Positions 39,826 through 53,885 of a stretch of 53,985 bases of DNA are shown here, piece by piece. Origin of the DNA: Pseudomonadota bacterium (GTDB lineage: Bacteria > Pseudomonadota > Gammaproteobacteria > Burkholderiales > Sulfuriferulaceae); assembly GCA_021786845.1 (NCBI GenBank), contig JAJYMO010000060.1, positions 1-53,985 of the forward strand. Reading direction: 5' to 3'. The position numbers were made by a program, and so were the translations under genes. A model generated the notes under the pieces. It made no database searches, was not told the origin of the DNA, and was given only the letters and a program-made list of their open reading frames with translations. Position 1 is the stretch's first letter. Every line of letters begins with the position of its first letter.

Positions 39826-40935
39826 ATGAATAGACAGCGCTTTCTTCCAGGAGAACGGTTTCAGAGCCTCATTGACCAGTTAAAGTCCGCAGGCTACGAC
39901 GTGGTCGGACCGCAGGTTCGTGATCATGCCATCGTCTTCGACGCTTTGGCGAAAGTGGATCAGTTGCCCATCGGGATCACGGATGAACAGGCGCCAGGTC
40001 GTTATCGACTCGAAAAATCCGAATCCCGGCGCTGTTTCGACTGGGCCACCGGTGCGCAAGCCATCAAGCCGATGACTTTCGTTGCGCGCGAAACCCTGTG
40101 GCAAAGTGAACGTCTTCCTGATGGAAGTCTTACTTTCCATGAGACGTTGGTCAAAACACGGCCCACCGCCATCATCGGGGTGCGAGCCTGTGATTTGGCC
40201 GCGCTGTCCATCCATGATCATCACTTTATGCGTGGCGCTCATCCCGACCCACTATACAGCCAGCGGCGGCAAAGTCTGTTTCTGATTGCGGTGCACTGTA
40301 TGCGTTCGGCGGCCACCTGTTTTTGCACAGCCACCGGCGATGGTCCCCGGGCTCGTTCCGGTTACGATCTTGCCCTGTCCGAACTCGATGAAGGGTTTAT
40401 TCTGGAGGCCCACACCGGGCGCGGCCTGGATATTATCGTACAGTTAGGTATCGACGAAGCAACGGTAGAGCAAATCGAACGGGCCGATGCAGGCATCGGG
40501 CAGGCAGCGAAACAGCAGCAACGCATTTTGCCGGTCGGACCGTTGCAGGAGAAGCTGGTTTCGGCAGTGGAGCATCCGCGCTGGCAAACGCTGAATGACC
40601 GTTGTCTGAGTTGCGGCAACTGCACGGCGGTCTGCCCCACCTGTTTCTGCCAGACACATGTCGACGAAATTTCGCTGGACGGGCAACAAACCAGCCACAT
40701 TCGGCAATGGGAGAGCTGTTTCAACCCCGATCACAGCCATATCCACGGCATCGTGATTCGGTCCGAACGAGCGCATCGCTATCGTCAATGGCTGACCCAC
40801 AAATTCGGGACTTGGGAAGAGCAATTCGGACGCAGTGGCTGTGTGGGCTGTGGTCGTTGCATCACCTGGTGCCCGGTTGGAATTGATGTCACCGAAGAAT
40901 TGGCTGTTCTGTGCAAAGGGCTCGTAAATGAATAA
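39826..40935 (+). CDS. hydB: Group 3b-type NiFe hydrogenase, beta (4Fe-4S) subunit
   Basis: A 369-residue electron-transfer subunit. The N-terminal part includes [23 protein letters not shown], typical of hydrogenase/sulfite-reductase beta subunits, and the C-terminus carries two [4Fe-4S] sets, [16 protein letters not shown] and [14 protein letters not shown]. It matches HydB/HyhB of the NADP-linked bidirectional (sulf)hydrogenases. It leads an operon in the order beta-gamma-delta-alpha-protease, and overlaps the gamma gene by eight bases. The ribosome site before ATG 39826 is weak. It relays electrons between the small subunit and the flavin subunit in the cytoplasm. Confidence 0.9.
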
Positions 40936-41761
40936 TCCGTTCATGCCCCATGAAGCCGAGGTGATTGCACGGCACGACGAGACTGCCGACCTGTTTAGCC
41001 TTCAGTTGCGCTTTACCGATCCACTGATTCACTCGCAGTACCGTTTTGTGCCGGGGCAGTTCAACATGCTTTACCTGCCGGGCATGAGCGAGGTGCCTAT
41101 TTCCATCGTCTCCGACCCTGATGACGTTCATATCATCGATCACACCATTCGTAAGGTCGGTTCAGTGACCAGCAATCTGGGCCGACTTCAGGTGGGGGAT
41201 CGGCTCGGACTGCGCGGCCCCTATGGCCGGGGTTGGCCGGTAGTTGATGCAGAAAATACCGATCTGGTCATTGTGACCGGCGGATTGGGCTGTGCGCCGT
41301 CCGTCTCACTGATTGAGTATGTATTGCGTCGCCAGGCCCGTTACGGGCGCATTCATATCATTCAGGGGGTCAAGCATTCCAGTGATTTCATCTGGCGTGA
41401 ACGCTATGACCTCTGGCGACAGTATCCCAATGTCGAGGTCTGGCTGACCGCCGATACGGGCGATACGCTCTGGCCCGAGCGCCTCGGGCCGGTCACGCAG
41501 TTTTTCGACCAGCTCGACATCGATCCGAAACAGACTTCCGTGATGATGTGCGGTCCGGAAGGGATGATGAAGGCGGTGGTGCACGACATGCAGCAACGCG
41601 CCGTGCCCGGTAAGCGAATCTGGTTCAGCATGGAGCGTAACATGCACTGCGCGCTGGGCTCCTGTGGCCGCTGTCAGCTCGGGGCGAAGTTCGTCTGCAA
41701 AGACGGTCCCGTGTTCAATTATGATGAACTGGCACCCTATTGGGGACACAAGGGCGTCTGA
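40928..41761 (+). CDS. hydG: Group 3b-type NiFe hydrogenase, gamma (FAD/NAD(P)) subunit
   Basis: A 277-residue flavoprotein of the ferredoxin-NADP-reductase-like type. [21 protein letters not shown] is the FAD site, [20 protein letters not shown] the NAD(P) site, [12 protein letters not shown] the usual C-terminal nucleotide motif, and [23 protein letters not shown] binds a [2Fe-2S] cluster as in dihydroorotate dehydrogenase electron-transfer subunits. It exchanges electrons with NADP(H) and completes the path to the hydrogenase core. No membrane segment is present, consistent with a soluble enzyme. Confidence 0.92.
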
Positions 41762-41779
41762 TTTTCGGAGATTTTGCCA

Positions 41780-42600
41780 ATGAATAATGCCTTGCCCAAA
41801 CCCAGGGTTGCCGTTCACAAATTCAGCTCCTGCGACGGCTGTCAGCTCGCGTTTCTGAATCTGGGTGAACGATTACTGTCCCTTGCCGAAACCGTTGATA
41901 TCCTGCATTTTGCTGAAGCGGGGCCCATTGACGAGGGTGCCATGGTGGACATCGCCTTCGTCGAGGGCAGTGTGGCCACCTCCCGGGATGCCGAGCGACT
42001 CAAACGAATACGCGAAAATAGCCGGTACGTCATTACGATCGGTGCTTGCGCGACCGCTGGAGGTATTCAGGCACTGCGTAACATGCATGACAGCGGTGAA
42101 TGGCTGGCGGGTATCTACGCGCAACCGGGGTATCTCGATCTGTTGCCTGAATCCAGCCCCATTGCCCGAATCATCAAGGTCGATCTGGAACTGTGGGGTT
42201 GCCCGGTCAATGGGGAGCAAGTGCTGGCTGTGACCAGAGCCCTGCTGGTGGGTCACATGCCTCATGTGGACCAAAATGCCGTATGCATGGAGTGCAAGCG
42301 ACAGCATGTCGTCTGTGTCATGGTGTCACAAGGCAAGCCTTGCATGGGGCCTGTCACCCAAACCGGTTGTGGGGCAATTTGCCCGAAAATGCAGCGTGAC
42401 TGTTATGCCTGTTTTGGTCCGGCGATCCAGGCCAATGTGTCCGCGTTGAGTACCCATTTTGCGGCCAACGGGATGCTCGCACGCGAAATTGCCCAGCGAT
42501 TGCTGTTCATCAATAACCAGGCCGAGCCATTTCTCGGTTCGGGCATCCAATGGCAGTCACAGGCTGCGCCAAACCCGACCTCCAGCCCAGGAATCAAATA

Positions 42601-42601
<1 letters not shown>
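41780..42601 (+). CDS. hydD: Group 3b-type NiFe hydrogenase, delta (small) subunit
   Basis: A 273-residue small subunit. FSSCDGCQLAFLNLGE is the CxxC ligating the proximal [4Fe-4S] cluster; the remaining ligands are in GACATAGGIQALR, ELWGCPVNGEQVL, and the C-terminal Cys-rich part ECKRQHVVCVMVSQGKPCMGPVTQTGCGAICP and DCYACFGP for further clusters. No twin-arginine signal, so it stays in the cytoplasm. The ATG at 41780 has CGGAG nine bases upstream, and its stop overlaps the large subunit start (TAATG). Confidence 0.93.
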
Positions 42602-43895
<1,294 letters not shown>

Positions 43896-43899
<4 letters not shown>

Positions 43900-44498: not shown

Positions 44499-44735
44499 AT
44501 GCGTGAATATGGTGTGTATGAAGCAAAAACAAAATTGCCTGATTTAATTAAACAAGTTCAACGGGGTGAACGCATTACCATCACTAATCGTGGTAAGCCT
44601 GTCGTTGATTTGGTGCCCAGTACTGATCGGCTTGCACAACAACATGTAGAAGCCATTGCGGCGATTAAAATGATGCGGGTAGGTACACTTGACCAGGCCG
44701 AGTTGAATGAAATGCGTTTAAGAGGTCGTCGCTGA
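44499..44735 (+). CDS. Phd/YefM-type antitoxin (VapB role)
   Basis: A 78-residue antitoxin. GVYEAKTKLPDLIKQVQRGERITITNRGKPVVDLVP is the Phd/YefM DNA-binding fold almost complete, and the C-terminal helix-rich tail (AIKMMRVGTLDQAELNEMRLRGRR) would block the toxin. A strong AAAGGA ribosome site precedes the ATG. It overlaps the toxin start by one base (TGATG). It probably represses its own promoter through the dyad just upstream. Confidence 0.92.
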   Translation: MREYGVYEAKTKLPDLIKQVQRGERITITNRGKPVVDLVPSTDRLAQQHVEAIAAIKMMRVGTLDQAELNEMRLRGRR

Positions 44736-45169
44736 TGGGCAGAGGTTTTGTACTGGATGCTTCTGTCACGATACGCTGGGCTTTGAACGATGGTTCTGTC
44801 ACTGATTGTATTTATGCCGACCAAGTCCTTGATTCGCTTGTCAGTGAGATGGCTTGGGTTCCGGCTTTGTGGTACACCGAAATAATTCATGTGCTGCGTT
44901 GTGCAGAGGAGGCTGGCAAATTTGGCGAATCAGTGCTGGCAGGATTTTTTTATCGTTTATCACAATTGCCTATCCAGCTGGATTCAGCCCCACTTTCCGC
45001 GATACAGCTTGCCGTAGCGGCAATTTCAAGAGAATTCAAACTTTCAGGTTATGATGCACAATATCTCGAACTGGCAACAAGACGCCATTTGCCCATAGCG
45101 ACTCTGGACAAAGATTTGCGTAAAGCAGCACAAAAAGCAGGCGTGGCAATTTATCAACTCCAACTTTGA
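44735..45169 (+). CDS. vapC: PIN-domain toxin VapC
   Basis: A 144-residue PIN-domain ribonuclease. The acidic active-site residues are visible: Asp in FVLDASVTIRW, Glu in LWYTEIIHVLR, and Asp in LSGYDAQYLELATRRHLPIATLDKDL. VapC toxins cleave tRNA or rRNA and are held by the antitoxin encoded upstream. The module lies between the hydrogenase operon and the mer operon. It ends 32 bases before the convergent merR end. Confidence 0.93.
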   Translation: MGRGFVLDASVTIRWALNDGSVTDCIYADQVLDSLVSEMAWVPALWYTEIIHVLRCAEEAGKFGESVLAGFFYRLSQLPIQLDSAPLSAIQLAVAAISREFKLSGYDAQYLELATRRHLPIATLDKDLRKAAQKAGVAIYQLQL

Positions 45170-45201: not shown

Positions 45202-45636
45202 TTACGTGGCGCCGATGCTACGCATCTCGTTTGCATTCTGAAGCGAAGTGATGAGAGGGCAAGACAATTTCCCCACCTGCGCATGACAATTGGACACGAG
45301 GTTCGCCAATGCCGTTTCCATACAAATCAAATCTGCCAGTTTTTGGCGCACATCGTGGAGTTTATGCTCGGCAAGTTTGCGGGCCTCCTCGCAATGGGTG
45401 CCGTCCTCCAAGCGTAATAATTCAGTAATTTCATCCAGGCTAAAACCCAGCCGCTGCGCTGATTTCACGAATTGCAACCGCTGCACATCCGCCTCGCCAT
45501 ACCGACGAATACTGCCGTAGGGTTTGTTCGGCTCCGGTAACAGTCCTTTGCGCTGATAGAACCGTATGGTCTCTACATTCACCCCGACCACCCTGGCAAA
45601 GGTGCCGATGGTCAAATTGCCAAAATTATTTTCCAT
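45202..45636 (-). CDS. merR: Mercuric resistance regulator MerR
   Basis: A 144-residue MerR. The N-terminal helix-turn-helix ([26 protein letters not shown] ... [11 protein letters not shown]) is canonical, and the three mercury-binding Cys are in place: Cys82 (THCEEA), Cys116 and Cys125 ([13 protein letters not shown]), equal to Cys82, 117 and 126 of Tn501 MerR. It represses and, with Hg(II), activates the divergent merTPA promoter by twisting the DNA. Transcribed divergently from merT, with the operator at 45642-45672. Confidence 0.95.
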
Positions 45637-45641
45637 ATCAC

Positions 45642-45672
45642 TTGATTCCGTACCTGACTACGGTAGTAAGCT
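45642..45672 (+). promoter_or_regulatory. mer operator-promoter
   Basis: A TTGATT -35 (45642-45647) and a TAAGCT -10 (45667-45672) are 19 bases apart, the overlong spacing that MerR corrects on activation. Between them CCGTA (45648-45652) and TACGG (45659-45663) form the MerR dyad. This agrees closely with classical mer operators. Confidence 0.88.
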
Positions 45673-45706
45673 TACCTCACTTTATCCTAATTTGAAAGGT
45701 AAAACC

Positions 45707-46063
45707 TTGGCACAAGAAAAATCTGGGTGTTTGCCGCTTATCGGCGGCGTTATCGCTGCGATTGCTGCTTCCCTGTGCTGTGTCGGACCATTGGTACTGG
45801 TTATGCTTGGTATTGGCGGTGCCTGGGTGGCTAATCTGGCCAAGCTGGAACCGTTTAGACCTTACTTTCTCGGCGCTGCCATCATTGCCTTGTTCTTCGC
45901 ATGGGAAAAAATTTATCACACGCCAACTGTAACCAATTGCACCCCCGGTTCTCTGTGTGCCTTGCCGCAGACAAACCGGGTTTACAAATTTTTATTCTGG
46001 GTTGTGGTTGTGCTGGTTGTTCTTGCTATTGCCTTTCCCTACATTGCCCCATTATTCTACTAA
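45707..46063 (+). CDS. merT: Mercuric ion transporter MerT
   Basis: A 118-residue inner-membrane protein with three hydrophobic segments. IAAIAASLCCVGPLVLVMLGIGGAWVANLAKLEPFRPYFLG matches MerT, with the Cys pair (CC) in the first helix that takes Hg(II) from MerP; a second Cys pair is near NCTPGSLCAL on the cytoplasmic side. The start is a TTG at 45707 with GAAAGG seven bases upstream; longer in-frame starts would run into the operator. It feeds Hg(II) to MerA. Confidence 0.92.
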   Translation: MAQEKSGCLPLIGGVIAAIAASLCCVGPLVLVMLGIGGAWVANLAKLEPFRPYFLGAAIIALFFAWEKIYHTPTVTNCTPGSLCALPQTNRVYKFLFWVVVVLVVLAIAFPYIAPLFY

Positions 46064-46075
46064 AGGAGTCCCATC

Positions 46076-48048
<1,973 letters not shown>

Positions 48049-48105: not shown

Positions 48106-48942
48106 TTAGTAAAGTAATTGAATACAATCAATCCAGCCATGTCTGACTGCGTTATTTAGCCAGGCAGCATAATCCATATCATTCGGTGCCACATTAAATG
48201 CGGCATCCAGCGATGAGGAAGATTGCAACGCTTGCACCCATAACGCTTCTGGTGCCGGTATTGCCTTGCATTGCGCCTCAAACCCCTCGCGCCACACCCA
48301 GGCGGACTCGCCCGGCAATTGCAAAGCCTTCTGCAGTGTCCGGGTGTCGGACTCCGGTAAAAGGTGAAGTTGTCGCAAGGTGACGAGCGGCCAGGGAGAT
48401 TGAATCAAACGGGTTCCGGCAGCCAGATGGATGCGCAGTTGGGCTGGCTCATCATTGACGAGACGTTGCAGATCAGCTTCGGTGAGGTGAGGGGGCGAAT
48501 CAGACAGAACTTGCCAGAGAGCCCAATCCAGTCGTGCACTGTCTGCCAACCACGGCCATGGGGCAAGTTCGCTTTGCCCGGTGATGGTTTCTGCAAATTC
48601 AGTGCCTGTTTTGGCCAGGTCGGCTTGTTTGGGGGGGCGATTTCGCCAGTGGCGCGCGCACACCGCATCGAATGCGGTGTCACCCAACATGGCCAGCACC
48701 GCAGGAAATTGTATTCGAAGCGCAGTGGTGGCATGGGCCAGGCCGTTGCCACGGTAAGCAGCAATACCTGCCGACCAGCGTTGCCCTTGCTGAAGCAGAC
48801 CGATTTCAGCGGGCGGTTCAGTGGGCGCGCAAGGTGAAAAAATCGCGCTCACCAAAGCCTGCTGCCGATGCATTTCCGCCTGCCAGCCTAAGGCCGTTAA
48901 TTTTTCCGTGCTGGACAACTCATTGTTTAAACGAGTCATCAT
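48106..48942 (-). CDS. bufC1: DUF2063 partner protein of a bufferin-type operon (BufC/HvfC-like)
   Basis: A 278-residue protein of the DUF2063 family (N-terminal putative DNA-binding domain). Recognisable segments are GIAAYRGNGLAHATTALRIQFPAVLAMLGDTAFDAVCARHWR, then a C-terminal half with LDWALWQVLSDSPP. These proteins act as partners that bring a precursor peptide to its DUF692 enzyme. It overlaps the DUF692 gene by four bases (ATGA), so the two are coupled. Third gene of a three-gene operon with the precursor and the modifying enzyme. Function is drawn from family and context. Confidence 0.88.
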   Translation of the reverse strand: MMTRLNNELSSTEKLTALGWQAEMHRQQALVSAIFSPCAPTEPPAEIGLLQQGQRWSAGIAAYRGNGLAHATTALRIQFPAVLAMLGDTAFDAVCARHWRNRPPKQADLAKTGTEFAETITGQSELAPWPWLADSARLDWALWQVLSDSPPHLTEADLQRLVNDEPAQLRIHLAAGTRLIQSPWPLVTLRQLHLLPESDTRTLQKALQLPGESAWVWREGFEAQCKAIPAPEALWVQALQSSSSLDAAFNVAPNDMDYAAWLNNAVRHGWIDCIQLLY

Positions 48943-49847
48943 GCCGCGCCTTGTACTGGATTTTTTGTCATCAACGCCCGTGCTTGATAGGCCTCACCCA
49001 GCAAAATATCCAGGGACGGCAGTTGGTCGTCCCATTCGATCAAAGTGGGCACCGCACCGAATCGCTGTATGGCGTGGGCGTAAGCGCGCCAAACGGCGGG
49101 CGAGACGATGGTTGAATGGTCGTCAATGATCAACCCAGCCTGGGCACTGTGGCCAGCCAGGTGAATTTCGCCCACTAACCCTGCCGGGGCGACATCGAAC
49201 AACTCATCCAGCCACCTCAATACGGACAATATTGGATCGGGTTCCTGGGCGTTGAGGGCATTGACCATCAAATTGTTGATATCCAGCAACATCCCGCAAC
49301 CGGTGCGGCGCACCAATTCGGCAAAAAATTCCGGCTCACTGAAATCGCGTTCGATAAAATTCAGATAGGTACTGAGATTTTCCACCAAAAGAGGGCGGCG
49401 CAGACGCTCTTGCACCTGTTGTACATGGGCGCAAAAAATGGTCAGGGAGGTTTGGGTGAATGCCACGGGCAGCAAATCGCAGGCGTGTATCTCGCCGCGA
49501 TGCGGCCAGGGCACTCTGGCAAAACACGCATGGTCGGACACCTGTACCGGATCAACGCGTTCAACCAGCGCAGCAAGCTGTTCCAGATGTTGCAGGTCAA
49601 TGCCGTGGGCTGAACCCAGTGCGAGTCCCACACCGTGCAAACTGACTGGGTAATCAGTCCGAATGGTACTCAGTATCTGTGCTGACGCATCGTATGGATT
49701 GAAAAAATTTTCCGAGTGTACTTCAATGAAATCGACATCGGGATGCGTAGTGCGAAAAATATTGTAATGCGGTTGGCGTAAACCGATGCCAACCGCAGGT
49801 TGCCGGGTAAGCCTGTTCCGGGATGCGTTCTGATGAGCAATCTGCAT
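48939..49847 (-). CDS. bufB1: DUF692 multinuclear iron oxidase (MNIO), BufB-like
   Basis: A 302-residue TIM-barrel enzyme of the DUF692/MNIO family. Metal-binding segments are in order: VDFIEVHSENFF, VSLHGVGLALGS, VSDHACFARV, LLVENLSTYL, MLLDINNLMVNAL, GEIHLAGHS and TLIEWDDQLP. In bufferin systems such enzymes turn Cys residues of the precursor into thiooxazole groups that bind copper; relatives act in methanobactin synthesis. The ATG at 49847 follows a GGTGAG sequence; a TTG at 49892 overlapping the precursor stop is also open. The family assignment is firm; the product chemistry is inferred. Confidence 0.92.
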   Translation of the reverse strand: MQIAHQNASRNRLTRQPAVGIGLRQPHYNIFRTTHPDVDFIEVHSENFFNPYDASAQILSTIRTDYPVSLHGVGLALGSAHGIDLQHLEQLAALVERVDPVQVSDHACFARVPWPHRGEIHACDLLPVAFTQTSLTIFCAHVQQVQERLRRPLLVENLSTYLNFIERDFSEPEFFAELVRRTGCGMLLDINNLMVNALNAQEPDPILSVLRWLDELFDVAPAGLVGEIHLAGHSAQAGLIIDDHSTIVSPAVWRAYAHAIQRFGAVPTLIEWDDQLPSLDILLGEAYQARALMTKNPVQGAA

Positions 49848-49888
49848 GATCTCACCGGACAGGGCGATCACCCCGGTCGGGGTCTTTC

Positions 49889-50215
49889 TCAAGCATTACG
49901 TTGAGCCATTGCCGCTTCAAAAGCTTTTGTTCTGGCCGGGTCTTTGAGCATGATTTCAGCCTGTTTCGCAGTCAGCCCCCCCATTTTCTTGCAGGTACCT
50001 TCCGGAACCACCTTGAAATCGCCGGGGTTATAGCTAACGGTGCTGGCACCCTGGCATGAATGCAGCCCCGAAACGCCTGCACAGCCATTTTGTCCGGCAC
50101 TGGCCACACCGAAGCATTTGTCCGTGTCTGCAGCTTGAGCCAAGGGTGTGAGTGACAGCGTTCCTGCTGCCAGCAAAGAAGTTGCCGCCGCACTGAGAAA
50201 TTGACGTTTATTCAT
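49889..50215 (-). CDS. bufA1: DUF2282 precursor peptide, bufferin type (BufA1-like)
   Basis: A 108-residue secreted peptide. A signal peptide (MNKRQFLSAAATSLLAAGTL..., cleavage after AQA near residue 28) precedes a core with four Cys, 34, 45, 54 and 75, in the DUF2282 pattern DKCFGVASAGQNGCAG ... SCQG ... VPEGTCKKMGG. Downstream genes encode the MNIO enzyme and its partner, the hallmark of copper-binding bufferins. An extra Lys/Ala-rich tail of about 28 residues follows the usual MGG end. An AGGAG ribosome site precedes the ATG at 50215. The neighbouring copper ATPase fits a role in copper buffering. Confidence 0.92.
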   Translation of the reverse strand: MNKRQFLSAAATSLLAAGTLSLTPLAQAADTDKCFGVASAGQNGCAGVSGLHSCQGASTVSYNPGDFKVVPEGTCKKMGGLTAKQAEIMLKDPARTKAFEAAMAQRNA

Positions 50216-50350: not shown

Positions 50351-50412
50351 TGATTCAAAATATTTGAATCATAGTCACTGGCTAAATCCGGTGACTTTGA
50401 TCAACTGGTTGA
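50351..50412. promoter_or_regulatory. Array of three dyads upstream of the bufferin operon
   Basis: First, a 21-base perfect palindrome with arms TGATTCAAA (50351-50359) and TTTGAATCA (50363-50371) around ATA. Second, arms AGTCACTGG (50373-50381) and CCGGTGACT (50388-50396) with one T-G pair. Third, TCAAC-TG-GTTGA (50401-50412). They lie 136-200 bases ahead of bufA1 and before the end of the SHOCT gene, so they may be operators or a terminator of the SHOCT transcript. The first resembles ArsR-family operators in general form. Confidence 0.5.
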
Positions 50413-50483: not shown

Positions 50484-50747
50484 TCATTTCCCTTGTCCCA
50501 AATCCTGGCGCTTCTCCAGGTATTCATCCCTTCCGATTTCTCCACGCGCATAGCGCTCATGGAGCGTGTCAAGCGCAGTGGTTTTTTTATCGCTATTCCC
50601 CTCACGGTCTGGAAAGGCTATCCGGACCAGTAACACGATGCCGGCAAAGATACCGGCAAGTAACAGGAGACAAAACAACCCCCATAACAGCATCATAAAT
50701 CCATTACCACTCCAGCCGGTATAACCACCCATCATGTATGGCCACAT
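50484..50747 (-). CDS. Small membrane protein with SHOCT domain
   Basis: An 87-residue protein. One strong membrane segment (GFMMLLWGLFCLLLLAGIFAGIVLLVRIAF) is followed by a charged linker and a C-terminal SHOCT motif (ALDTLHERYARGEIGRDEYLEKRQDL). Met-rich start MWPYMMGGYTG. Small SHOCT membrane proteins are often found in copper-resistance clusters, as here beside copA, but their role is unknown. AGGAGG stands six bases ahead of the ATG at 50747. It is divergent from copA. Confidence 0.85.
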   Translation of the reverse strand: MWPYMMGGYTGWSGNGFMMLLWGLFCLLLLAGIFAGIVLLVRIAFPDREGNSDKKTTALDTLHERYARGEIGRDEYLEKRQDLGQGK

Positions 50748-51053: not shown

Positions 51054-53504
51054 ATGAATACGCTTGAAATGGGTGTCGAAGGCATGACCTGTGCATCTTG
51101 TGTGGCACATGTAGAAAAAGCGCTGCGCGAATTACCCGGTGTGCTGGATGCAACGGTGAATCTCGCCACCGAACGGGCCCGGGTTGATTATGATCCCGCA
51201 ATAGTGGCTCCGCAACGCATGGCCGATGCGATCAGCGAAGTGGGTTATACACCCGTGGTGAGCGAGATGGAATTTGCCGTAGCGGGGATGACCTGCGCTT
51301 CCTGTGTCGCGCATGTGGAAAGGGCCATACGGGATTTGCCCGGTGTAACGGAAGCAACGGTCAACCTTGCCACCGAGCGTGTGCACGTACATTACTTTCC
51401 TGCAAGTGCGGATTTTGCCGATTTTTCTGCCGCCGTGGCAGATGCGGGTTATGAAGCGCATGCGCTTGGGGAACAGGGTGAAGATGAATCGGCGGCAAAG
51501 CAGCGCGCACTCACCGCACAACGCCATGGTGTCTGGCTGGCGGCAGCACTGACGCTGCCCGTTGTCGTCTTGTCGATGGGGATGTTCACCTTCCCGGCAT
51601 GGGATGCGCGGTTTGCTGCGGTCAGCCCCTTTCCCCATTTTTGGGATTGGGTGCAGGCCGCGTTGACCACTCTGGTGCTGTTTGGCCCAGGCTTGCGCTT
51701 CTTCCGCCCTGGGTTTATTGCCTACCGTCGCCTCACACCCGACATGAATTCTCTGGTGGCAACCGGTACGGGTGCCGCCTGGCTGTACAGTATGCTGGTG
51801 TTGCTGCTGCCGAACCTGTTCCCCCTCACTGCACAGCACATTTACTTTGATTCTGCGGCAGTCGTCATCACCGCCGTTTTGCTCGGCAAATACATGGAAG
51901 CACTTGCCAAGGGCAGGGGGTCGGCGGCAATCCGGAAATTAATGAACCTGCAGGCCAAGGAAGCGCGGGTGCAACGCAGCGAGGGTGTCGAGGAATCCGT
52001 TCCACTGGCATCAGTGCGCCGTGGCGACCTTGTGGTGATTCGTCCGGGTGAACAGTTGTCTGTGGACGGGATCATTCGGGAAGGGGCATCGCACGTGAAC
52101 CAGTCAATGCTGACCGGCGAACCCATTGCCGTGAACAGGCAAGTCGGGGACGCCGTGGTCGGTGGCACCATCAACCAGGAGGGAAGGTTATTGGTGGAAG
52201 CCACCTCGGTGGGAAAAGACGCCGTGCTGGGGAAAATCATCCAGCTTGTCGAACGTGCGCAAACGGGTAAACTGCCCATTCAGCGACTGGCCGACCAGGC
52301 AGTTCAGGTATTTACCCCCATCGTACTTGCCATCGCAGCGCTGAGTTTTTTGTTCTGGCTTTTTTTTGGGCCAGCACCGGCGATCACCACCGCCTTGATT
52401 TCCGCCGTTGCGGTACTGGTGGTGGCCTGCCCCTGCGCCATGGGGTTGGCGACGCCCGCTGCGATTATGGTTGGCACGGGTCGGGCGGCGGAGATGGGCG
52501 TATTGTTTCGCAAAGGCGAGGCGCTGGAAACGCTGTCCCATGTGGACATGGTGCTGTTTGACAAAACCGGCACCTTGACCGAAGGACGCCCCGCCCTGGT
52601 GGATCTGCTGGCTGGTTCGCTGCAGGAAGCGCTGCGTCTGGCAGCGAGTCTGGAAAGCAATTCCGAACATCCGCTTGCACTCGCCGTGCTGGCAGCCGCT
52701 CAAGCGCAAGGGGTTGTGCCTGAACCGGTGACCGAGTTTAGTGCCATACCCGGTTTCGGCATCCAGGGTAATGTGAATGGGCGTCATGTGTTGTTGGGCG
52801 CACGCCGCTTTGTTGAACGTGAAGGCATCGACATTGGGCATTGGGCGACCAAAGCAAACGATCTCGAAGCAGAGGGCAAGACCGTGGTGTTTCTGGCGGC
52901 AGACCAATTGCCGCTGGCGCTGCTCGCCATTGCCGACCCCATCAAGTCCGATGCCGCCGCAGTGGTTGCTGCCATGAAAAAGCTTGGTTTGAGAGTGGGC
53001 ATGGTCACCGGCGATGGACAACGCACTGCCGAATCGGTGGCGCGAGCGCTGGATATCGATGAAGTGCACGCCGAAGTACTGCCCGCTGACAAAGCGGGTG
53101 TGGTGACGGCGTTGCAGCAACTTGGCCGTCACGTCGCTTTTGTCGGCGACGGCATCAATGATGCGCCGGCGCTTGCCCAGGCAGATGTCGGCATCGCCCT
53201 GGCTTCCGGTACCGACATTGCCATCGAGGCCGCAGATGTGACATTAACGCGCGGGGAACTTGCCGGTGTGCCGACTGCCCTCATTGCTGCGCGCAAAACC
53301 ATGTCGAATATTCGCGGCAATCTGTTTTGGGCTTTTTTTTACAATATCCTGCTGATCCCGGTGGCTGCCGGCGTGCTGATTCCATTTTATGGCATCCATC
53401 TTAACCCCATGCTGGCGGGTGTCGCGATGGGCACCTCCTCTATTTTCGTGCTGGGCAACAGCATGCGGCTCAAAGGGCTGCGGCCCTGGAAGGCATCGGA
53501 TTAG
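51054..53504 (+). CDS. copA: Copper-exporting P-type ATPase CopA
   Basis: An 816-residue P1B-type ATPase. Two N-terminal heavy-metal domains with GMTCASC (10-16 and 78-84) are followed by the membrane domain, the CPC metal site in ACPCAMGLATP (about 458-460), the phosphorylation motif DKTGT (Asp about 503), SEHPLA in the nucleotide domain, GDGINDAPALA, and the last helices with FYNILLIPVAAGV and MGTSSIFVLGNSMRL. It exports Cu(I) from the cytoplasm. The ATG at 51054 has GGAGG four bases upstream; the frame is open further upstream but that stretch has no family similarity. The last-helix motif MGTSS differs slightly from the common MSSVSV form. Confidence 0.95.
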   Translation: MNTLEMGVEGMTCASCVAHVEKALRELPGVLDATVNLATERARVDYDPAIVAPQRMADAISEVGYTPVVSEMEFAVAGMTCASCVAHVERAIRDLPGVTEATVNLATERVHVHYFPASADFADFSAAVADAGYEAHALGEQGEDESAAKQRALTAQRHGVWLAAALTLPVVVLSMGMFTFPAWDARFAAVSPFPHFWDWVQAALTTLVLFGPGLRFFRPGFIAYRRLTPDMNSLVATGTGAAWLYSMLVLLLPNLFPLTAQHIYFDSAAVVITAVLLGKYMEALAKGRGSAAIRKLMNLQAKEARVQRSEGVEESVPLASVRRGDLVVIRPGEQLSVDGIIREGASHVNQSMLTGEPIAVNRQVGDAVVGGTINQEGRLLVEATSVGKDAVLGKIIQLVERAQTGKLPIQRLADQAVQVFTPIVLAIAALSFLFWLFFGPAPAITTALISAVAVLVVACPCAMGLATPAAIMVGTGRAAEMGVLFRKGEALETLSHVDMVLFDKTGTLTEGRPALVDLLAGSLQEALRLAASLESNSEHPLALAVLAAAQAQGVVPEPVTEFSAIPGFGIQGNVNGRHVLLGARRFVEREGIDIGHWATKANDLEAEGKTVVFLAADQLPLALLAIADPIKSDAAAVVAAMKKLGLRVGMVTGDGQRTAESVARALDIDEVHAEVLPADKAGVVTALQQLGRHVAFVGDGINDAPALAQADVGIALASGTDIAIEAADVTLTRGELAGVPTALIAARKTMSNIRGNLFWAFFYNILLIPVAAGVLIPFYGIHLNPMLAGVAMGTSSIFVLGNSMRLKGLRPWKASD

Positions 53505-53631
53505 TGCAGAATGAAGATTTTTTCACATGTTCACGGTTTCTCATTTAACATACTTGATTTCAGGCTGGGACAAACGTAAACCTGACCTGAAGTGTAAAGG
53601 TTCAAAGGCGATGTTTGAAACGCCCGATATC

Positions 53632-53651
53632 CACCGATCTGAAGGCCGGTG
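53632..53651. repeat. TGAA-loop hairpin repeat
   Basis: CACCGATC, TGAA, GGCCGGTG: the same element as at 32156-32175 with two base changes that weaken one arm, and with the same flanks on both sides. It lies between copA and the CopZ-like gene, 28 bases ahead of the latter. The remaining 53505-53631 stretch shows nothing clear. Confidence 0.6.
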
Positions 53652-53678
53652 ATTTTAACTTCCTGAAAGGGGATGATT

Positions 53679-53885
53679 ATGCATGAAACCACGTTGCAAA
53701 TAAGCGGCATGACTTGTAACCACTGCGTGATGAGTGTGACCAAGACCTTGCAAAAAATACCGGGTGTAGACAACGTTCAGGTGGATTTGAGCAAAGGTGA
53801 GGCAGTCGTTCGCGGCAATGCCCCTGCCGAGGCAATGGTTGCAGCAGTCAAGGCCGCAGGATATGGAGCCGAAGTAAAAAGCTGA
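53679..53885 (+). CDS. copZ: Heavy-metal-associated domain protein, CopZ-like copper chaperone
   Basis: A 68-residue single-domain protein. TTLQISGMTCNHCVMSVTKTLQKIPGV carries the metal-binding MTCNHC, and the rest keeps the beta-alpha-beta-beta-alpha-beta order (DNVQVDLSKGEAVVRGNAPAEAMVAAVKAAGYGAEVKS). Placed after copA, it most likely carries Cu(I) to the ATPase. The ATG at 53679 lies six bases after AAAGGGG; an ATG two codons earlier overlaps that site and is less likely. Confidence 0.92.
   Translation: MHETTLQISGMTCNHCVMSVTKTLQKIPGVDNVQVDLSKGEAVVRGNAPAEAMVAAVKAAGYGAEVKS

Follow-up and report, generated by a model that had tools for sequence, protein, structure and literature searches.

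A probable Buf1-type bufferin operon without DoxX and the conserved C-terminal tail of its precursor

What is the function of a compact operon that codes for a small four-cysteine peptide, a DUF692 enzyme and a DUF2063 protein, and why does the peptide run on for 28 residues past its MGG end? The window, meaning the whole stretch of 53,985 nucleotides analysed here, belongs to an assembly of 2.19 Mb that is 98.6% complete, in which DUF2282 and DUF692 have a single match each and a 16S search gave none. The bufferins, described only recently, form a large class, with thousands collected in PMC12452194. According to the accessible sections of the literature, BufB and BufC turn the central cysteines of Buf1 precursors into copper-chelating thiooxazoles, the outer cysteines form a disulfide, and the peptide is exported by Sec (PMC12452194, PMC13097082), with the Sec signal doubling as leader (PMC13419390). 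The explanation that best fits the locus as a whole, to which we give a probability of about 0.8, is a Buf1-type bufferin operon that lacks DoxX and in which we read the tail as a structural element of the mature product.

The genes lie close together on the minus strand in the order bufA-bufB-bufC, between positions 48106 and 50215; bufB and bufC overlap by 4 bases, and all three frames are intact (Table 1). We assign them to the Buf1 bufferin operons because of the families and the bufABC order, the ligand residues of BufB and the match of the BufC model. The initial annotation, made from the DNA letters, had proposed a bufferin-type operon with a DUF692 enzyme and a DUF2063 partner as well as a signal-bearing, four-cysteine DUF2282 precursor, and the domain scores in Table 1 bear out the three families. 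A possible operator is the inverted repeat TGATTCAAAATATTTGAATCA, which lies 135 bases before the bufA start; the inverted repeats found in the 300 bases preceding each of 29 other precursor genes do not include it.

Table 1. Position, strand and supporting evidence of the features discussed in the window
Feature	Position	Strand	Evidence or remark
bufA, DUF2282 (Buf1) bufferin precursor, 108 aa	49889..50215	-	PF10048 67.9 bits, cut-off 22.4
bufB, MNIO (DUF692) maturase, 302 aa from ATG at 49847	48939..49847	-	PF05114 (MbnB_TglH_ChrH) 291.5 bits
bufC, DUF2063 partner (PME type 1), 278 aa	48106..48942	-	PF09836 51.3 bits; AlphaFold2, Foldseek
Coding stretch of the bufA C-terminal tail (residues 81-108)	49892..49975	-	motif, dN/dS, AlphaFold2 helices
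Inverted repeat TGATTCAAAATATTTGAATCA, perfect, 9-base arms	50351..50371		possible operator
SHOCT-domain small protein gene	50484..50747	- (as buf)	PF09851 31.5 bits
merR (-) and merT-merP-merA (+), context outside the operon	45202..48048		NCBIfam models over cut-offs
copA and copZ, divergent from buf, context	51054..53885	+	TIGR01511, NF047957

The best NCBIfam match of BufB is the MNIO family bufferin maturase NF050167, at 302.0 bits (E 3.2e-90), which falls under the curated equivalog cut-off of 310, a naming threshold. Its residues N191, N192, D242 and H244 are invariant in 59 alignment rows and, through an alignment with 3BWW, match N175, D242 and H244 of HvfB, where N175 corresponds to N191 or N192. 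In the accessible part of PMC13419390, these three HvfB residues are predicted ligands of iron site 3, and each alanine variant is inactive. An identity of BufB as methanobactin MbnB was rejected, with TIGR04159, whose cut-off is 325, scoring 43 bits. For BufC, a sequence search of the PDB gave no match, and the AlphaFold2 model (pLDDT 94.1) has its only significant Foldseek matches in two chains of TglI (8hi7_A, E 1.1e-6, TM 0.58/0.59; also 8hci_A) and in NGO1945 (3dee, E 6.2e-4, TM 0.51/0.68). TglI and NGO1945 serve to define DUF2063-RRE partners in the sections of PMC12452194 available to us, and by its modelled fold, judged on the match of the whole model, the C-terminal part of BufC appears to be RRE-type. 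In another locus (L066, 5983-7713), bufB and bufC make up a single frame of 577 aa with both Pfam domains, which is either a natural fusion of the MNIO with its partner or a lost stop.

BufA consists of a signal (about residues 1-28), a core (29-80) and the tail (81-108). Its N-terminus, with a basic start and a hydrophobic stretch up to LAQA/AD, is Sec-like as judged by eye. Exactly four cysteines are present, at positions 34, 45, 54 and 75, all invariant in 32 aligned rows, and DUF2282 is the only domain detected. The sequence KMGG occupies residues 77-80 and is followed by 28 further residues; the extra tail past the MGG end that had been annotated initially is thus real. A Buf2 bufferin was rejected, as that type needs six or twelve conserved cysteines. 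A PDB fold search with the BufA model returned nothing significant (best E 3.9), and a PDB sequence search returned just two chymotrypsin chains at E 0.4. The bufA genes of L063 (5603-5944), L065 and L071 have a fifth cysteine through a six-residue insert that repeats a CAG..C element; judging from the sequence, this may possibly provide a third modifiable site.

By analogy with the described systems, we propose the following course. BufA would be made with a Sec signal that doubles as leader, and BufC, as a DUF2063-RRE partner, would present it to BufB, a putative multi-iron MNIO, which would oxidise the two central cysteines, 45 and 54, to 5-thiooxazoles. After export by Sec, a disulfide would form between Cys34 and Cys75, and the mature peptide would chelate periplasmic copper, complementing CopA and CopZ, which would clear copper from the cytosol.

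The neighbourhood raises the question of which metal the operon serves. As initially annotated, buf sits between mercury and copper detoxification genes. On one side are merR (45202-45636, minus strand) and merT, merP and merA (plus strand, ending at 48048), each over its cut-off (TIGR02051 MerR, NF010314 MerT, TIGR02052 MerP, TIGR02053 MerA). On the other are copA, which ends at 53504 (plus strand) and encodes a Cu-type P1B ATPase with two HMA domains (TIGR01511, 564.6 bits, cut-off 397), and copZ at 53673-53885 (plus strand; CopZ NF047957, 97.6 bits, cut-off 85). It could be argued that the operon serves mercury or several metals instead of copper: merRTPA adjoins buf, a genome of the same genus (G001) has a MerC-DUF2282 fusion right after merA (L034, 12335-13039), and MerC-bufferin fusions are known from mercury clusters in the accessible part of PMC12452194. 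However, mer and buf converge, with the merA stop at 48048, the bufC stop at 48106 and 57 bases between the stop codons, so they do not form one transcript, and the window peptide is no MerC fusion. Moreover, of 294 confirmed loci, the best 80, chosen for the similarity of their BufB to that of the window, contain in their flanks no frame whose best phmmer match is the window's MerT, MerP, MerR, CopA or CopZ; the flanks covered reach at most 6 kb and are often shorter. A mercury or multi-metal role is therefore very unlikely in our judgement, and the mercury link implied by the initial annotation is weak.

MerA-like frames do occur in L064, L074, L076 and L080, at 19-225 bits against 816 bits for the MerA of L034, and were taken for related oxidoreductases. 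A conserved linkage of buf with mer or cop is thus rejected for the best 80 of 294 loci, and the neighbourhood appears to be a local cluster of metal-resistance genes and not a conserved unit. The direction of copA is away from buf, and the SHOCT gene between bufA and copA is not conserved either, with one match in the best 80 of 294 confirmed loci (L077), which lies on the opposite strand some 5 kb from bufA. The window BufA is no MerC-Buf1 fusion, having no MerC domain, whereas the L034 protein has both domains. In the BufB tree, L034, L035 and L036, all from members of the same genus, represent a deeply different Buf1 operon; the genus of the window thus holds two bufferin types. Further along the window lie a Phd/YefM antitoxin and PIN-domain pair adjoining merR (44499-45169) and a hydrogenase-type operon with 4Fe-4S dicluster, NAD-binding and NiFe hydrogenase genes (39826-43899).

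How widely is the tail shared? The scan patterns were built from a four-row alignment in which three rows have long-tail precursors, and the cysteine pattern was judged in 78 of the 80 scan loci, 19 of 30 class loci and 30 of 31 first loci. We define a clade of 30 loci (L052-L081) with BufB scores of at least 369 bits, the other 50 loci scoring at most 354 bits; a quick tree gives this BufB clade an SH-aLRT of 100. When tails were aligned across DUF2282 precursors, as had been suggested initially, the long motif with an intact precursor was found in 26 of the 30 clade loci and in 0 of the 50 other loci (best 80 of 294 confirmed loci), a recurrence that rules out read-through or chance. The distal half, P...KAFE..M.K, is the marker of the clade, while a proximal segment like GG..x.eAk..k also occurs in many loci outside it. 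Precursors with the motif have 34-37 residues after the last cysteine, against 14-25 in the other 50 loci, with two exceptions outside the clade: L118 has 37 residues of unrelated Lys/Asp/Met-rich sequence, and in L091 the contig end cuts bufA.

Within the clade, L067 and L072 have a short-tail precursor beside intact bufBC, for which two losses are the simplest reading. In L053, bufBC has no adjoining bufA, and a long-tail bufA of the same genome lies near doxX on another contig (L162). In L055 (1-463), a tail fragment without the Cys core precedes bufB near a MAG contig end, and the genome has no DUF2282 match. The L062 genome (G438) carries three bufA genes and one detected MNIO; a short and a long form stand in tandem in L062, and the third, a short one, is in L163. 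Tail length also differs between G015, of the same genus (L052 contig, long), and G006 (L067 contig, short). G058 (L040), from another family, keeps the long motif; the BufB tree sets it apart from the clade, on a very long branch whose placement the tree program flags as unsure; its tail may be a separate gain, a transfer or a tree misplacement. In a class-wide sample, the precursor profile matched in 98 of 369 genomes, and among the 19 judgeable of the 30 best loci the motif is present in the window's own locus only; the matches in G189 and G323, reaching profile positions 110 and 108 of 112, lay outside this motif inspection. Plasmid spread of this type is unsupported: among 72,556 plasmid records, 67 have a match to the precursor, in every case below 60% identity and in none over 80% of its length. 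Besides Thiomonas species, the clade includes a 'SulCav' isolate, a groundwater isolate and many records under the bare title 'Proteobacteria bacterium'. From these names (Thiomonas, 'SulCav', groundwater), we presume that the habitats are metal-rich or acidic.

Selection on the tail was estimated from the clade precursors, leaving aside the short forms (L067, L072 and the short L062 copy), L055 without a core and L053 with no bufA in place. In 12 pairs sharing no sequence, dN/dS is 0.27 for the signal, 0.15 for the core, 0.32 for the proximal tail and 0.42 for the distal tail; the 234 of 378 pairs with dS 0.15-1.2, when pooled, give 0.31, 0.22, 0.41 and 0.41, respectively. These values indicate that the BufA tail is under purifying selection, at a dN/dS of about 0.3-0.4, and that the constraint is weaker than on the core, with a ratio about twice as high. 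Among 28 rows, F99 and A86 are invariant, A98 and E100 are kept in 27 and P93 and M103 in 26, and a Leu is also near-invariant. Alternatively, the tail might have persisted by inertia as a neutral extension peculiar to the lineage, since its dN/dS is roughly double the core value and short forms exist within the clade (L067, L072). This is unlikely: the 12 pairs sharing no sequence give a dN/dS of 0.3-0.4, the Phe is invariant, the Leu, Pro, Ala, Glu and Met are near-invariant, and the tail is kept in 26 of the 30 clade loci. Conservation and purifying selection together back the initial suggestion that the tail matters.

The best AlphaFold2 model of BufA, built with 32 sequences, places two helices in the tail, at residues 83-90 and 93-107, with a pLDDT of 93-95; the model as a whole has a mean pLDDT of 78.2 and a pTM of 0.63, and the other four models range from 76.4 to 60.7. 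The high pLDDT of the helices can reflect plain helix propensity. Their hydrophobic moment is not raised (mean z -0.45 and -0.58), and simple amphipathic packing of the tail helices is thus unsupported.

We propose two ways in which such a tail could act. First, it may belong to the mature peptide as a structural module that caps or stabilises the core or docks it to a partner; this is the reading we prefer. Second, it could be a follower peptide, with the BufC or BufB of the clade binding the tail together with the signal so that the core is held in register. BufA, BufB and BufC of the clade have indeed diverged together, BufC scoring 108-417 bits against that of the window inside the clade and 46-135 bits outside; the proximal segment is found in many loci beyond the clade, and G058 retains the long tail outside it. 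Shared descent would yield the same co-divergence, however, the short-tail precursors of L067 and L072 adjoin intact bufBC, and the L062 tandem pair of short and long forms shares a genome with one detected MNIO. A follower peptide is therefore a doubtful proposition, though one to be weighed seriously, and a part played in the mature peptide is likelier than the altered recognition that was initially suggested for the tail. For the same reason, namely the short tails beside intact bufBC together with the three bufA genes and one MNIO of the L062 genome, the sequences suggest that the distal half is dispensable for maturation. The argument against a recognition role might lapse if the short-tail precursors were unmodified, and gaps in MAGs can hide a second MNIO in the L062 genome. 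These natural short-tail relatives offer a ready comparison for separating the role of the C-terminus in maturation from its role in the mature copper peptide.

The other departure concerns DoxX, a common though not an indispensable core member of Buf1 clusters. The initial annotation had described an operon without the DoxX-type membrane gene, and this extends to the genome: DoxX is neither beside the buf genes nor matched elsewhere, and the same search was positive in 7 of 14 control genomes. By our rule (phmmer with one DoxX, same strand after bufC, within 1.5 kb), DoxX follows bufC in 12 of the 30 clade loci, and a 13th is L066, with bufB-bufC in one frame; it lies nearby on the opposite strand in 5 and is unseen in 12, two of which (L054, L073) are cut by a contig end. 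Outside the clade, it follows bufC in 43 of 50 loci (best 80 of 294 confirmed loci). Of the 30 clade genomes, 27 have DoxX somewhere and three, namely those of L052, L055 and L063, have no match; the window thus shares the lack with L052 and L055, which are nearest to it by BufB. The lineage of the window either lost DoxX or never had one, and such DoxX-less operons are useful for asking what the job of DoxX is. In the genomes of L053, L071 and L065, a bufA lies near doxX on a contig apart from the bufBC locus (L162, L164 and L165, respectively), which hints at a link between BufA and DoxX; the copies in L164 and L165 are four-cysteine, long-tail forms.

The same absence might mean that the buf gene set is inactive or decaying, with DoxX lost and the nearest relative, L055, devoid of the Cys core. 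The lack of a DoxX match in the window's own genome and in those of L052, L055 and L063 would fit, as would the tail fragment upstream of bufB in L055 and its genome without DUF2282. Against decay, the window frames are intact with the metal-ligand residues retained, the core dN/dS of the relatives is low, outside the clade, too, 7 of 50 loci have no DoxX after bufC, and the gap in L055 is near a MAG contig end. Thus, decay is highly improbable, and we keep to an operon of the Buf1 type that lacks DoxX. Taking this further, we tentatively suggest, as a possibility short of an even chance, that bufferins with the long tail form a subfamily of their own among exported copper peptides. On this view, the two-helix module would be functional in the mature product, governing its stability, its oligomer state or its docking to a partner in harsh surroundings (metal-rich, perhaps acidic), and in DoxX-less lineages such as that of the window it would take on a task performed by DoxX in relatives.

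In the accessible parts of the bufferin and MNIO literature (PMC12452194, PMC13097082, PMC12636315, PMC12538549, PMC13419390), we found no description of such an extension or of a role for it, and supplementary alignments may show the tail; roles are assigned there to the signal and the cysteines, none to a C-terminal extension (PMC12452194, PMC13097082, PMC13419390). A search pairing DUF692 with Thiomonas found no paper, and the titles among the matches listed for bufferin and acid mine drainage concern 'buffering'. What is new relative to the known Buf1 operons is thus the conserved tail and the DoxX-less form.

The closest known system is Buf1 of Caulobacter vibrioides, as far as it is described in the available sections of PMC12452194. 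The window shares with it a four-cysteine DUF2282 precursor with a signal-like start, the bufABC order, a bufferin-type MNIO and a DUF2063 partner; it differs in having no DoxX, in its conserved 28-residue tail predicted as two helices, and in that none of the seven neighbouring genes scanned codes for a sigma factor or NrsF. With the captophorins, oxazolin HvfABC and fontiphorin FonABC, it has in common the pair of an MNIO and a PME type 1 protein and the predicted 5-thiooxazole chemistry, going by the parts of PMC13097082 and PMC13419390 at hand; the window precursor is a DUF2282 protein, whereas captophorins have EGKCG repeats. Like the MerC-Buf1 fusions in the accessible part of PMC12452194, the window has a DUF2282 domain adjoining mercury genes, but its peptide lacks the MerC domain and its operon is convergent with mer. 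TglHI (pearlin) and MbnBC (methanobactin) are distant MNIO relatives with solved structures, and TglI resembles the BufC model, although substrates and products differ from those of the operon described here.
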